From: Nitrosomonas mobilis
GTDB lineage: Bacteria > Pseudomonadota > Gammaproteobacteria > Burkholderiales > Nitrosomonadaceae
DNA length: 64,000 nucleotides
Assembly: GCF_900103035.1 (NCBI RefSeq)
Contig: NZ_FMWO01000020.1
Span: 1-64,000 of the forward strand
Direction of reading: 5' to 3'
Positions 9,610 to 13,656 of the stretch are shown here, piece after piece. The notes below the pieces were generated by a model that was not told the origin of the DNA, searched no databases, and saw only the letters and a list, made by a program, of their open reading frames with translations. Numbering within the stretch: the stretch's first letter is position 1; each line of letters begins with the position of its first letter. The position numbers were made by a program, and so were the translations under genes.

Positions 9610-10033
9610 GCACTACCTCCATTTCAGTACCCAGCCGCATCGGAAATTCATGAGTCCTGCCTGGCGCCTGAGTGTACTCAGGCACGAACCTCAACAATGG
9701 TCCTCAGGGCCGCTTCGTCGGATCAACCCATGGCGCTGCTTGTACTACGCCATGAGATACGGGTAAAGGAAAAACTAAACCACCTTTTCCATGAGTTCTG
9801 AATGTACTGAAAGCCGGCTCGGTTGTCAAACACGGTGATAATCGATCGAAAAATGACTGTACTTTGGTTCAGCTAACACAAAAAAATCAAAAAAAATATG
9901 CTCCTATATTATTTTCAGTTAAAAGAACGGAGCACAGAGGAATTCACCGGAATTTACATAATTAACCGCATTTTTATCGTTTTAATTACCACTCAAAAGT
10001 ACCCAACTGAAAATTAAGGAAGGAGACGCTACG
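9610..10033. other. Intergenic gap upstream of the GST gene
   Basis: No convincing gene. A perfect 8-bp inverted repeat (GCCTGAGT-GT-ACTCAGGC) lies at 9666-9683, about 57 bases upstream of the GST start, and could be a regulator-binding site. The segment from ~9830 to 10000 is very AT-rich with long A runs and no reading frame. Confidence 0.4.
9666..9683. promoter_or_regulatory. Perfect inverted repeat, possible operator of the GST gene
   Basis: Arms of 8 bp with a 2-bp centre, roughly 57 bases upstream of the GST start codon. The size and symmetry fit a dimeric repressor site (TetR/LysR/MarR types). No regulator gene lies next to it, so the role is speculative. Confidence 0.25.
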
Positions 10034-10421
10034 CTATATTACAGTGGACGCTGCTGAGACACCAAGGACAGAGACGGCCGCCGACAACCCATGCTGTTGG
10101 TGCAGCAGTGCCGCTTGAACCAACAGGATGACTATCGCGATGCCGATTGTACCAATCGCATTTGCCCGGGCAATCTTCCCGGTTGCTTTAATTCGAAGAG
10201 CTTTTTTTGGTAGGTCGCCTTCAATCTCAATGCTGCCCTGATTGTTCTTGAGTGCTTTGCCAAACTTTCTCTGTAGAAATAGCCATAAGTACCGCCTGTG
10301 ATGAGCACTAACACCAACCGTAACCGGTGCTTTTGTAGTGAGCGCGGCAGGCGAAAAATGCGCCCGGGTTGACGGCCTTGTCGAGCCAATACTTCTCTGA
10401 AAATATAAATGCGATTTTCAT
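10034..10421 (-). pseudogene. Frame-disrupted small membrane protein, unrecognised
   Basis: An ATG at 10421 starts MKIAFIFSEKYWLDKAVNPG and runs into a stop after ~37 codons. A second frame, open through the same region and ending at 10034, encodes LPKKALRIKATGKIARANAIG followed by a clear TM helix (TIGIAIVILLVQAALL). The third frame is also open (85 codons from 10389) but has a poor composition. The protein-like character of the two pieces suggests one gene with a frameshift, or a start I cannot place. It lies at the left edge of the cassette array. Confidence 0.35.
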
Positions 10422-10471
10422 TTCTTTGTTTGCCTAATAAGAAAGGGTAGCGTCCTATTTTTTCTATGAGT

Positions 10472-11056
10472 TTATTTTTTCTGCGCTTTTTGTTGAGTTT
10501 GATACTCTAGAATCTGTGGGAACTTTTTCTTCACGTCATCTTTGGCACGGGAAATACTCAAATAGAAACCTTCAGCAAACTCTTTGATTTGCGCTTCAAT
10601 CCTTTCTTGCATGCTACTTTTGCTTCCAGCCAATATGTAGCTACCCATTGAAAAAGTAATTGGCGCTAGGGTGTTCGGCCCATCTGGTACGGTTTGAGCA
10701 TATGGCACGACCACACTACCCCAAAACACCAAGTTGGCATTAATATGCACAGCGCAAGAAGATGAATTTGTTGCAAAACCCAAAGCTGTGATAGATATTT
10801 TGTTTGCAATAAATGCTTCCTCTGCGGCAATTGAGAAACCATTTTGCCTAAGTACTAGTTCCATCTTGTCTTTCATTTTTGATGGCTGAGGAAGGCAACC
10901 ATCCGACACTTGATCACTATATTCTATGAAAAAGTTGTCTCTATGTGCGATCAAACTTCCTAAAGACCCTTCTAGCAGAAGAGATGCCTCATTTTCTGCT
11001 GCAGCCCAAGTAGGGGCAAGTATTAGGACCACCAAAGCAAATATATATTTCCTCAT
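10472..11056 (-). CDS. Secreted protein of unknown function (cassette gene)
   Basis: The protein has 194 residues from the ATG at 11056, which has AGGAGAGAG just upstream; the longer frame from 11080 starts inside the preceding attC-like site. A signal peptide (~1-20, LVVLILAPTWAAAE) predicts export to the periplasm. The mature protein has two Cys residues (near DGCLPQ and SSCAVH) that could pair, and a Lys/Gln-rich tail. I do not recognise the family. It is the last gene in the reading direction of the cassette array, and no clear attC follows it, only a weak ATTAGGC-like end near 10430. Confidence 0.6.
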   Translation of the reverse strand: MRKYIFALVVLILAPTWAAAENEASLLLEGSLGSLIAHRDNFFIEYSDQVSDGCLPQPSKMKDKMELVLRQNGFSIAAEEAFIANKISITALGFATNSSSCAVHINANLVFWGSVVVPYAQTVPDGPNTLAPITFSMGSYILAGSKSSMQERIEAQIKEFAEGFYLSISRAKDDVKKKFPQILEYQTQQKAQKK

Positions 11057-11069
11057 TCTCTCTCCTTGC

Positions 11070-11130
11070 TCATAACGCAAAGTCGAGGGGTGCTGCGCTC
11101 GCGGCGTCCCGCTCGAACGCCAGGTTAGGC
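11070..11130 (-). repeat. attC-like recombination site 3
   Basis: On the minus strand the site runs from GCCTAAC to GTTATGA. The inner part folds strongly: TCGAG pairs with CTCGA and GCCGC with GCGGC around a short loop. The outer 7-mers fit the RYYYAAC...GTTRRRY layout of integron attC sites, with a non-consensus last base. It lies between two leftward genes, as expected of a cassette junction. Confidence 0.65.
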
Positions 11131-11176
11131 TGCACGATGTTACGGTGGTACTTTGCCGCAGTAGCCTTAGCGAGTT

Positions 11177-11479
11177 TCACTTTTTCCCCATGCTTCTTTT
11201 TTTTGCAATGAAATCTGCAGCCTCTTGGGCGTTTATTATTTCATAAGCCCATTGCCATGATGTATAGAGGTGTAGCTCTTGAACGGTATTCTTAATTTTT
11301 GCACGTACTTTGAAGAGCGTTCCAAGCGGATGACCTTCTCGCATGGATGATGAGCATTCAACCCGCATTGAAGTCGAAAGACCTTGGCCAAGTAGCGGAC
11401 GAGCGCGAATTGAGTGCTTCGAGCTTCCTCCCGTGTGATGGAACGTTTCAATAATCACATTTCGATAATAGTCACCCAT
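11177..11479 (-). CDS. Hypothetical protein (cassette gene)
   Basis: A 100-residue basic protein with no signal peptide or TM segment. The ATG is only seven bases after the GTTAGGC end of the upstream attC-like site, the usual tight spacing of a cassette ORF, so there is no room for a normal Shine-Dalgarno. Notable stretches are LHLYTSWQWAYEIINAQEAADF in the C-terminal third and a Ser/Arg-rich centre. No family is recognised. A second frame of 71 codons overlaps the same bases; the cassette boundaries favour the longer one. Confidence 0.5.
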   Translation of the reverse strand: MGDYYRNVIIETFHHTGGSSKHSIRARPLLGQGLSTSMRVECSSSMREGHPLGTLFKVRAKIKNTVQELHLYTSWQWAYEIINAQEAADFIAKKRSMGKK

Positions 11480-11485
11480 AGTGCG

Positions 11486-11556
11486 GCCTAACTACTGTTT
11501 TTGCGGAAGCAAAGATGGGTGGCGGGTTAAACGTCACCTGCAGCGAAATGTTATGT
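11486..11556 (-). repeat. attC-like recombination site 2
   Basis: On the minus strand the site begins ACATAAC right after the stop codon of the DUF4917 gene and ends GTTAGGC seven bases before the next start codon. The arms TTTCGCTGCAGG and CTTCCGCAAAA pair imperfectly, with one extra base on one arm, a feature of attC sites. The 71-bp length is in the normal range. Confidence 0.65.
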
Positions 11557-11557
11557 T

Positions 11558-12604
11558 TCACATTCTCCCCCACACATCGGCCGTCTTCGCATCGTAGATG
11601 TGCACCTTGCACTTGAATTTGTGCTCGATGCTGTGGATGTGTTCCCTATCGTCTTCCGTGTAGGTGCCGATATAGATACTAAGGAGTTTCGGGAACGACT
11701 TTCTCCCGAATTTCGCAGCACGATTAATGGCCTCGATGATGTGCTCATCGTACTTGCCGAAGTTAAACCCAAACGTAACTAGCGACCCAGTTGCATTGCA
11801 TAGATTGTCGTAACAGTCCGTGAGGTACGGGTTGTGCTTGATGTGGCTCAGCTTCTGGTTTCCGTCACCAGCAGTAACGAAAATTGGGTACTCACCAAGC
11901 TCCATACGAGAGCTGATGTTCTCAAGCAAATAATGGTGCTGCGAGTATTCCTCTTTCTCAATGGCGATGCCGGCATCGAAAAACGGCAAGGCGCCATGAA
12001 GATAGAAAACGTTCTGGTTATCCCTGTTTTTCCCCCACATTAAGTCAGACTGAATCTGCTTTTCAGGCGGGACGAACTCATCGGAGTTTTCTAACTCTCG
12101 CCCAAAACCATCACAATGATCGGAAACACTGTTGCGCATCAATATCCAGTACAGCAACAGATCGTAGTTGGTTGAAAATATCTTACCGCCGGTGTTCAGG
12201 AATTTCGCAAGAAATTTTGAGCAAGCTTCGCTTTCGTTTTCAGGGACCGTAAACACGTGCTCTGGATGTAGTTCTTTAACCGATTCAAGGAGACATTTCT
12301 TCAGCCTGGCGCTTGCTGCATCGATCTTTTTCTTCAGCCCGACGCCACCGCCGAACGCGTCAATCAGGGCTGAAAAGTTGTCCAGTTGCTGCATAATAAT
12401 TTCAAAGTTTTTGGTTTCAATCACCTCTAAAATCTTTGATAAGTCAACATCATTCAAGTTGTCTATGAATTCGTGTAGGGCATTGTAAGAGAAGATCTCC
12501 GGGTCATACGCCACGCTAAAACCGTTGCCCAAAAGGAGATGAAATTCGCGGTTCCTATATTTTCCTACGGCCTTCAGGACATCAGCGAAGGTTTCGAGCT
12601 TCAT
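11558..12604 (-). CDS. DUF4917 / SIR2-like family protein (cassette gene)
   Basis: The protein has 348 residues. It carries SIR2-fold motifs in order: HLLLGNGFSVAYDP near residue 23 (nucleotide-binding loop), KIFSTNYDLLLYW near residue 146, NVFYLHGALPFFD near residue 198 and SLVTFGFNFGKYDEHI near residue 285. These match the DUF4917 family as I remember it, which resembles SIR2 proteins; many such proteins in antiviral systems degrade NAD. No TM segment or signal. AGGAG lies eight bases before the ATG. It has its own attC-like site at the 3' end, so it is a separate mobile cassette. The defence role is inference. Confidence 0.7.
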   Translation of the reverse strand: MKLETFADVLKAVGKYRNREFHLLLGNGFSVAYDPEIFSYNALHEFIDNLNDVDLSKILEVIETKNFEIIMQQLDNFSALIDAFGGGVGLKKKIDAASARLKKCLLESVKELHPEHVFTVPENESEACSKFLAKFLNTGGKIFSTNYDLLLYWILMRNSVSDHCDGFGRELENSDEFVPPEKQIQSDLMWGKNRDNQNVFYLHGALPFFDAGIAIEKEEYSQHHYLLENISSRMELGEYPIFVTAGDGNQKLSHIKHNPYLTDCYDNLCNATGSLVTFGFNFGKYDEHIIEAINRAAKFGRKSFPKLLSIYIGTYTEDDREHIHSIEHKFKCKVHIYDAKTADVWGRM

Positions 12605-12629
12605 GAGTGTCTCCTACGTGTCCTGTGAA

Positions 12630-12712
12630 ACATAACGACATGGGCAAGGGGCCGCCGCCGCTTTTTGGCGGTCCCAGCGACCGAAGGGAGCGAACTTGAC
12701 CCACTTGTCAGA
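12630..12712 (-). repeat. attC-like recombination site 1
   Basis: On the minus strand the site starts within three bases of the stop codon of the two-TM protein gene and ends GTTATGT. The arms GTGGGTCAAG and CTTGCCCATG pair with a single unpaired T in the first arm, the classic asymmetry of attC L boxes. A GC-rich hairpin (GACCGCC/GGCGG(C)) lies inside. This is the best-formed of the three sites; the outer box next to the stop codon (TTCTGAC) is degenerate. Confidence 0.72.
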
Positions 12713-12714
12713 AA

Positions 12715-13320
12715 TCATTGTTTCAACGCTGCCTTACAGATACGGACAAAAGATTCGTATTTAGGTGTAAATTCACTCGACCTATCATTTAGTATTTTTG
12801 CTGAATCAAGAACATGTTGTGGTCTTGGATCGCCTTCGTTTCTTACGTTATCTGGGTAAACAGAAATAAAATCACCAGAACCTACTGGTACTGTTTGTTT
12901 GGCGAATTCCATAGCTAGTTCTTTTGCGGCTTCATATAGAGATTTTCGCTCTTTTTCCAATTTCTTATTGAAGAATTCTTTCTCAACCGTATCCCAAGTG
13001 TCAGCAAAGTCATATAAAGGCTGAATAGAACTTTTCGGAAATGAATTACCAAAATCTGTTTCTTTTAATAAGCGCAGAGTTGGTTCGACTGGAAATACCT
13101 GCTGAAACTCCTCAAATAACGCTAGGTCATGACTGTTTTTTTCACCACCAAAACCAAGTTTCTCTTTGACTTTATCTTTGCCGAATAAGGCACCTAACGA
13201 GACTAAAAAACCAATTGCTGGTTCAAATTCCGGATTTCCAGAAAAATAGCCACTAAGAAACCATGCCTCAAACAAAATGAGCGATAAAACAACAATAATA
13301 TTTTCTACGGTAATCCTCAT
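12715..13320 (-). CDS. Two-TM membrane protein with cytosolic domain, unknown function (cassette gene)
   Basis: The protein has 201 residues. Two TM helices lie at ~8-28 (IIVVLSLILFEAWFLSGYF) and ~34-47 (AIGFLVSLGALFG), separated by a short NPEFEPA turn, then a soluble domain of ~150 residues with many charged helices. The two-TM module with an xPEFEPxIxF turn recurs in front of various domains in bacterial conflict proteins as I recall, but I cannot name the C-terminal family. AGGAAAC precedes the ATG. It is the first gene of the array in the direction of reading. Its 3' end abuts attC-like site 1. Confidence 0.6.
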   Translation of the reverse strand: MRITVENIIVVLSLILFEAWFLSGYFSGNPEFEPAIGFLVSLGALFGKDKVKEKLGFGGEKNSHDLALFEEFQQVFPVEPTLRLLKETDFGNSFPKSSIQPLYDFADTWDTVEKEFFNKKLEKERKSLYEAAKELAMEFAKQTVPVGSGDFISVYPDNVRNEGDPRPQHVLDSAKILNDRSSEFTPKYESFVRICKAALKQ

Positions 13321-13341
13321 ATGTTTCCTATGATTTCTAAC

Positions 13342-13656
13342 ATAATATATACGACATTATTTGCCTTACAAAAATAGCAACCCATCCCATACATATCATG
13401 CTGAATTCCAACTAGCTGACATTATTGCGATTTTATGTGGGTGACAAGTCAGTCTCAAAGATAATTACGGCAACGGTTTCAGAAGCTTTATTTGAATCTG
13501 ATGTGGAGCGGCAGCTTTAGGGTTGTATTGTCCGGATTGAATGGTTTAGTAGTAAGCTGGTCGCTGTGTAATCGGTCTATGCAGTTGGTTTCCGCCTTAC
13601 TCAATCAGACTTGCGTTCGTTTAAAATTTGGATCGTGAGTACTTGATATGATCAAG
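13342..13656. other. Intergenic gap at the head of the cassette array
   Basis: About 315 bases between the first cassette gene and nadC. A ttctaac at 13335-13341 (GTTAGAA on the minus strand) just ahead of the first cassette gene could be an attI or attC core remnant, but no paired arm is seen. No integrase gene or other reading frame is present. Confidence 0.4.

Follow-up and report, generated by a model that had tools for sequence, protein, structure and literature searches.

A cassette array without an integrase gene in Nitrosomonas mobilis: one of about 13 dispersed attI platforms, probably loaded in trans

The usual description of an integron has a single integrase, a single attI site and a single cassette array. 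On contig C36 (NZ_FMWO01000020.1) of the draft assembly of Nitrosomonas mobilis (3.08 Mb, 112 contigs), a stretch of 64,000 nucleotides, here called the window, carries a short array of cassette genes that begins at an attI copy of its own and has no integron integrase gene (intI) beside it. This array is probably an orphan attI platform, one of about 13 dispersed over the genome, on which a full-length IntI from another locus acts or acted in trans to load and reshuffle cassettes. The basis at the level of sequence comprises the attI copies, most of which have no intI beside them, the attC-bearing genes that follow many, and a switch in sequence at the crossover base; from these patterns we infer the action of IntI in trans, the function of a platform promoter and the mode of platform spread.

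An earlier note on the same DNA had described an integrase-less array of four leftward genes from 10421 to 13341, with three junctions marked by GTTATGT, GTTAGGC and GTTATGA and with start codons close behind the sites. All four genes and all three junctions were located on the minus strand, and the distances from the R' end to the next gene's start codon were measured as 25 (site 1), 6 (site 2) and 13 bases (site 3). A search with TIGR02249 found no intI on C36, in agreement with the description as an array without an integrase. The interval given was right; the element extends further, at least from attI at 13358 to the end of a repeat at 10433-10465. Along the minus strand from 13358 to 10433, attI is followed by four genes, for products of 201, 348, 100 and 194 aa, with an attC-derived site after the first, a shortened attC after the second and a well-kept attC after the third; the repeat end comes after the fourth (Table 1). 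The earlier label, a cluster of attC sites lacking an integron integrase (CALIN), fits insofar as cassettes occur without intI, but the attI at the head had been overlooked, and with it the element is an integron platform without intI rather than a loose attC cluster. As in a complete integron, the array appears to be headed by an attI, judging by its likeness to that of contig C100, and its cassettes lie in one orientation with attC between them (three attC-derived sites by similarity, one by model); an intI beside the array is the missing part.

The window attI and the motif adjoining the C100 intI agree at 20 of 22 bases, as emerged from the comparison with the genome's own intI and attI that the earlier note had proposed. 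Its suggestion that an integrase elsewhere in the genome was relevant proved well placed. The genome encodes two full-length integron integrases, on contigs C14 (488.3 bits) and C100 (449.5 bits) (TIGR02249), together with three N-terminal intI stubs of 72 model positions each (one on C31, two on C92), and the window attI is of the C100 type. On C100, the expected attI position beside intI holds AATGTCGTATACATTACGTTAG, followed by genes with attC matches. A first attI pattern was drawn from the window and C100 copies, and hence the 10 other matches are independent; with 0-3 mismatches allowed, it recovered 12 genomic sites against none for the reversed control, and a looser pattern (R at position 21) occurred 13 times, with one for the control. 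Under R2, a 57-position attI profile with 57 training rows that include the window copy and most of the genome's other copies, the window attI scored 28.8 bits (E 4.5e-7). An intact intI stands beside only one of the roughly 13 copies, that on C100. Co-directional open reading frames start within about 50 bases in 12 of the 13 copies, the exception being C80, and the sequence after attI differs from copy to copy, switching at the crossover base.

Upstream of attI, the copies are of two types. Type A consists of intI promoter sequence, sometimes with an intI stub, and type B (window, C7, C80) carries sequence unlike type A. Window positions 13400-13627 are repeated at C7 with 85% identity and positions from about 13417 to 13590 at C80 with 91% identity, the C80 copy lacking about 60 bases beside attI in the alignment. 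Between the C36 and C7 type B copies, identity is 0.80 upstream and 0.30 downstream of attI. The platform also holds a candidate cassette promoter (Pc), TTGAGA-17-TAAAAT, which matches 10 of 12 consensus bases; three such sites occur in the stretch against 1.1 expected by shuffling, and both hexamers are present in the C7 and C80 copies too. TTGYCA-N17-TTTAAT, found in intI 5' regions and kept in many stubs, was also considered as Pc and set aside, being weak in the stub platforms of this genome; its conservation proves little because the site overlaps coding sequence in intact intI.

The sites between the genes were assessed by several routes. Rfam at the gathering threshold gave no matches in the window, and an attC covariance model (R1) was therefore built from 44 sites upstream of intI genes in other species. 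The training sites were gathered with a rule-based attC scan of 249 kb upstream of intI and 666 kb beyond it, which yielded 52 array-strand and 21 other-strand sites in the former and 15 on both strands in the latter; 44 of the 52 were kept, and eight that were spurious, long or awkward to align were removed by eye, some of which may be real attCs. The rule-based scan recovered none of the three window sites. R1 matched 11070-11130 on the minus strand at 32.9 bits (E 4.3e-5; genome-wide E 0.002), the next-best match in the window reaching 11.2 bits (E 1.9). The covariance-model check suggested by the earlier note thus bore out one site and left two under the model, though these are attC-derived by similarity. 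In a nucleotide comparison with 51 attCs (the 44 of R1 and seven from this genome, with E-values that hold for that small set), all three junctions proved attC-derived on the expected strand, with no opposite-strand matches. Site 2 (11495-11555) is 84% identical over 61 bases (E 2e-12) to the attC at C14:4033-4131, which itself scores 41.8 bits under R1; site 3 (11073-11130) gave E 4e-11, and site 1 (12652-12713) is similar to attCs of loci L067 and L073 (E 1e-7). Paired arms had been put forward as further evidence. Folded as single-stranded DNA, the sites were weakly set apart from shuffles (z-scores -1.9 to +0.3, six folds), and paired arms alone are therefore insufficient as proof of attC. 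Under the CALIN rule of IntegronFinder 2 (at least two attC and no intI), R1 gives one match and BLAST three sites; applied strictly, the rule could miss the window array, because one attC alone passes R1.

Genome-wide, R1 gave at least 15 attC matches at E up to 1, of which 12 share a contig with attI or intI; at E up to 0.01 there were at least 10, eight of them on such contigs. These counts are lower bounds from 150 scored of 603 first-look candidates. Three matches, C58:1467, C53:891 and C39:8606, lie on contigs without detected attI or intI and are possibly array ends cut by the assembly.

Similar attI copies recur across the genus. The family-wide search scored 45 candidates per genome under stricter filters, so that its counts are lower bounds, and R2 had been trained on 57 of the copies concerned, whose matches are not independent. 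At E up to 0.01, R2 matched at least 71 of 125 family genomes, comprising 66 of the 85 in Nitrosomonas and 5 of the 40 outside it. Matches in Nitrosomonas totalled at least 200, with 137 in genomes without an intI over the curated cut-off; two or more were present in 48 Nitrosomonas genomes, 34 of them without such an intI, and the highest count among the matches listed was that of the present genome (11). An intI over the cut-off was found in 21 of the 85 Nitrosomonas genomes, in some cases with stops or only in part. Genomes G020 and G059, with five and four attI matches and no over-cut-off intI, are single contigs, and assembly gaps therefore do not explain the absence of intI there.

To these counts can be added a sample of 60 attI loci from relatives (61 motif copies), picked by eye from pattern matches, mostly with 0-2 mismatches and representing a part of many matches. 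By protein comparison, intI is present end to end beside six copies (in two pieces in L266), partial beside 10 and absent beside 45. The attI motif lies 132-135 bases from the intI start in all seven end-to-end copies, the six from relatives (132-134 bases) and that of C100. Conservation over 74 aligned copies (13 from this genome and 61 from relatives) ends right after GTTRG, the IntI crossover. Among 41 attC matches in the 60 loci (E up to 0.1), 38 lie on the same strand as attI and downstream of it, where 31% would be expected (binomial p 2e-16), and 24 loci hold at least one match; control loci of the same genus gave none (31 loci, 99.6 kb).

The strongest alternative is that orphan attI sites are remnants of complete integrons, loaded in cis, whose intI was later lost. 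Partial intI genes, whether stubs or internal deletions, are indeed common (10 of 61 relative copies), two of the three window attCs are damaged, and a survey from 2008, in a passage of which nearly one third of intI genes are counted as pseudogenes (PMC2426708), fits such a history. We nevertheless consider it unlikely in view of platforms that have one intI-deletion junction in common, since the deletion must have preceded their separation. In this genome, the platforms C31a, C92a and C92b, with a common stub-repeat junction, have a mean identity of 0.88 over 300 bases upstream and 0.29 over 60 bases downstream. Likewise, nine copies from seven genomes, located beside an M28 peptidase gene (encoding an M28 peptidase with a PDZ domain in the L247 copy), have mean identities of 0.79 upstream and 0.27 downstream; downstream values of 0.27-0.30 are at chance level, as for unrelated DNA. 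One of these seven genomes, G022, has a broken intI that is still over the cut-off, and the other six have none. Copies with one deletion junction thus differ in their first cassette, the change falling at G|TT; to explain this, cis loading alone would need independent loss of intI at the same place in each copy. A switch at G|TT after the loss of intI suggests that the platforms are, or once were, acted on by an integrase located elsewhere.

Differing cassettes also stand between conserved flanks. A conserved right-flank gene is kept in six copies from five genomes (G020, G016 twice, G059, G088 and G067), namely five of the nine peptidase-locus copies and L254; its distance from attI is 387-2383 bases, the intervening genes are mostly different, and none of the five genomes has an over-cut-off intI. 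In L254 (G059), attI survived a further deletion that removed the intI stub together with the peptidase gene's end. One cassette protein is common to L273 and L281, platforms in different genomes (71% identical over 171 residues). As a separate observation, G016 has three platforms (C45, C55; L245, L246, L247), each with the same peptidase-gene flank, which indicates that duplication of the platform took the flanking gene, or its end, along.

Homologous recombination within the shared platform sequence, swapping arrays that had been loaded elsewhere in cis, is a second explanation, improbable but live. Cassette array exchange by this route is described as common for class 1 integrons of Salmonella genomic island 1 (SGI1), which provides a precedent (PMC7056807), and 0.2-1.6 kb of shared upstream sequence would permit it. 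Such exchange, however, requires homology on the far side as well, or a rearrangement, and in C31a, C92a and C92b no shared far-side sequence was noticed except the ~150-bp repeat described below, in an inspection that was not a systematic test.

Less credible still is a plain CALIN, formed by IntI insertion at a chance attG site or as a rearranged array fragment. CALINs are common, and attG insertion has been reported (passages of PMC12444791 and PMC12901181); yet in place of a chance GTT, the array's insertion point ahead of gene 1 holds an attI copy matching in type that of the resident integrase, and more than 200 bases of platform sequence are common to the window and two other attI copies. 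That the 22-base motif serves Nitrosomonas as a promoter or operator, with ordinary genes behind it, can hardly be correct: the motif is A+T rich, lies just upstream of genes and occurs in at least 66 of 85 genomes of the genus, many without intI, but its spacing to intI is fixed in seven of seven end-to-end copies, same-strand attCs lie downstream of it, and its conservation halts at the IntI crossover.

A number of observations weigh against the reading of the window as an orphan platform loaded in trans. Within the array, in searches of 3 kb, R1 gave site 1 (12630-12713) only 5.0 bits (E 1.9) and site 2 an off-register 8.7 bits (E 0.31), neither reaching the model; with two of three attCs damaged and no terminal attC, the array may be frozen. 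Among the genome's 13 attI copies, 11 are strong under R2 and those on C80 and C16 are weak (E 0.003-0.004), and no gene is listed after the C80 attI. Because the 22-base core was itself the selection criterion, its own conservation is biased and only its flanks are independent. In the relatives, 36 of the 60 loci have no attC by the model, two matches in L300 lie upstream of attI and one in L280 on the opposite strand, and 47 of the 66 attI-bearing Nitrosomonas genomes have no over-cut-off intI today. At the peptidase locus, only three of the six double-flanked copies have an attC match with E below 0.01, and common tracts precede the right flank in L241 and L273 (305 bases) and in L245 and L247 (78 bases). 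The array-exchange alternative counts on the same side.

If orphan platforms are loaded in trans, a full-length IntI encoded elsewhere would load and reshuffle them, now or formerly, most likely that of C100, because its adjacent attI has nearly the same sequence as the orphan copies. A promoter retained by the platform would then drive the cassettes. The integrase of a congener, N. europaea, reportedly excises and integrates cassettes, to go by the title of a study by Leon and Roy from 2003. A broader proposal, which is put forward tentatively and may not hold, is that Nitrosomonas possesses a distributed integron: orphan promoter-attI platforms, found genus-wide and scattered over the chromosome, each with a few cassettes near a promoter, and a single integrase, either resident or occasionally acquired, that would serve them all in trans. 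In contrast, the usual layout has one attI and a long, mostly silent array. The parts are ordinary integron cassettes; what is unusual is the architecture, in which orphan attI platforms are dispersed over a genus.

Tandem attI copies were observed within single stretches on C92 (L020, 1856-6780), C7 (1361-3188) and C31 (3126-4987), in a layout of attI, genes, repeat, sometimes an intI stub, and then the next attI with its genes. Judging by these copies, it is as if the attI platform itself were carried as cargo. With respect to the integrases, the sequence at the attI position of the C14 integrase looks unlike the dispersed attI. This integrase (C14:5035-5979) and one in N. eutropha Nm57 (L063) are 99% identical, while nadC is only 67% identical at the DNA level to that of G001, the same N. 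eutropha genome to judge by coinciding hit coordinates; the C14 intI therefore probably moved recently.

Several published systems resemble parts of this arrangement. CALINs, as defined by IntegronFinder, likewise comprise cassettes and attC-type sites without a nearby intI, and can be mobilised in trans by a functional IntI (PMC12444791). The window array differs in that it begins at its own attI and platform, and could accept new cassettes at a proper docking site. In Xanthomonas, chromosomal integrons have an ancestral platform, frequent loss of intI and CALINs away from the main locus, as here; those CALINs are attC clusters, and the relevant passages make no mention of further attI copies (PMC12444791). 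The complex class 1 integron In104 of SGI1 has two attI sites, each with its own cassette, and its arrays are swapped by homologous recombination (PMC7056807). These two attI sites lie inside one element, whereas in Nitrosomonas a dozen are scattered over the chromosome and others across the genus. Cassettes of the Delta-attI type, in class 1 and 2 integrons, bring extra attI sequence used by IntI1 into arrays; mostly, attI1 fragments of 14-18 nucleotides or attI2 segments replace the cassette attC inside one mobile integron, with one case of a complete second attI1 (PMC12901181). In Nitrosomonas, by comparison, attI sites head separate arrays at many loci. The nearest likenesses in the open-licence papers searched are a complex class 1 integron with two attI and cassettes that carry attI fragments; no title, abstract opening or sampled main-text passage among these papers described dispersed attI copies (e.g., PMC3108266, PMC3053210).

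Should attI sites be copied round a genome and take up cassettes in trans, this would alter the capacity for cassettes, their expression and their detection. According to a passage of its description, IntegronFinder does not detect attI outside class 1 (PMC9024848), and since such attI sites are not modelled, some CALINs may be docking platforms overlooked by software. The genus-wide attI profile makes loading in trans directly testable.

Table 1. Features of the cassette array in the window and of its platform.
Feature	Position	Strand	Remark
attI core AATGTCGTATATATTATGTTAG	13337..13358	-	crossover G|TT at 13341/13340
Type B platform, upstream part	13359..13627	-	common to C7:3167 and C80:472 attI copies; no intI found
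Candidate Pc, TTGAGA-17-TAAAAT, pointed at cassettes	13430..13458	-	consensus match only
Cassette gene 1, 201 aa	12715..13320	-	no family over cut-off
attC-derived site 1	12630..12713	-	R' GTTATGT (12630-12636) intact, R'' degenerate
Cassette gene 2, 348 aa, DUF4917/SIR2-like	11558..12604	-	PADLOC candidate defence family PDC-S21
attC-derived site 2, R' GTTAGGC (11486-11492)	11486..11556	-	28 bases of right arm missing
Cassette gene 3, 100 aa	11177..11479	-	no family match
attC site 3, R' GTTATGA (11070-11076)	11070..11130	-	best preserved of three
Cassette gene 4, 194 aa	10472..11056 (11080 with TTG start)	-	few, scattered homologues
End of ~150-bp RAYT-like repeat	10433..10465	+	88% match; directly past gene 4

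Among the cassette genes, gene 2 matches PF16263 (138.4 bits) and PDC-S21 of PADLOC (361.7 bits), and 4953 homologues were found at E up to 0.001; against SIR2_2 it scores 24.0 bits, barely below the cut-off of 24.5, its matches to SIR2 models being weak. Gene 4 has 31 homologues, with Shewanella, Ferrimonas and Maribrevibacterium among the named sources, and matched nothing in Pfam, PADLOC or NCBIfam; R1 found no attC between it and the repeat end. For gene 1 no family exceeded its cut-off, and for gene 3 none matched. A SIR2-like domain (45.9 bits) is also encoded by the first gene after attI in the C61 array (C61:91284-92354), which reaches 32.5 of 500 bits for the NCBI SIR2 anti-phage family, far under the cut-off. 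SIR2-like genes thus occur in two attI-led arrays of this genome. A defence role for them is a guess from family labels; their presence as candidate defence genes in such arrays bears on how genes of this kind are exchanged.

The ~150-bp repeat has inverted ends AAAAAGGGGACGCTACCC (e.g., L143:1399-1546, L020:6626-6775, and L021 with seven matches) and contains what we take, from its translation, to be a RAYT-like N-terminal coding stub. It gave 27 matches in this genome, one of them the opposite-strand echo of another; for 14 matches, attI or intI is no more than 5 kb away (binomial p 2e-12). The repeat abuts all three intI stubs, and its end adjoins the window array. It was considered as the vehicle of the platforms and set aside; the repeat was searched for in this genome, and many orphan attIs of relatives are without such a junction in the stretches viewed. 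A preference of the repeat for cassette arrays may be the sole tie.

As for the insertion site, no clean pre-insertion site was found at the nadC loci of relatives, and a search of 15 nadC loci revealed no attC next to that gene. Homology between the window and these loci stops at the nadC 3' end, and the GST gene lies on other contigs. In 13 of 19 relative nadC loci, nadC is followed by the same gene, presumably glutamate-synthase-like. The left flank of the window array is a mosaic of three more repeats (9761-9895, 9896-10014 and 10153-10366) with copies elsewhere in the genome, the first of which (9761-9895) was found in other Nitrosomonas genomes too.

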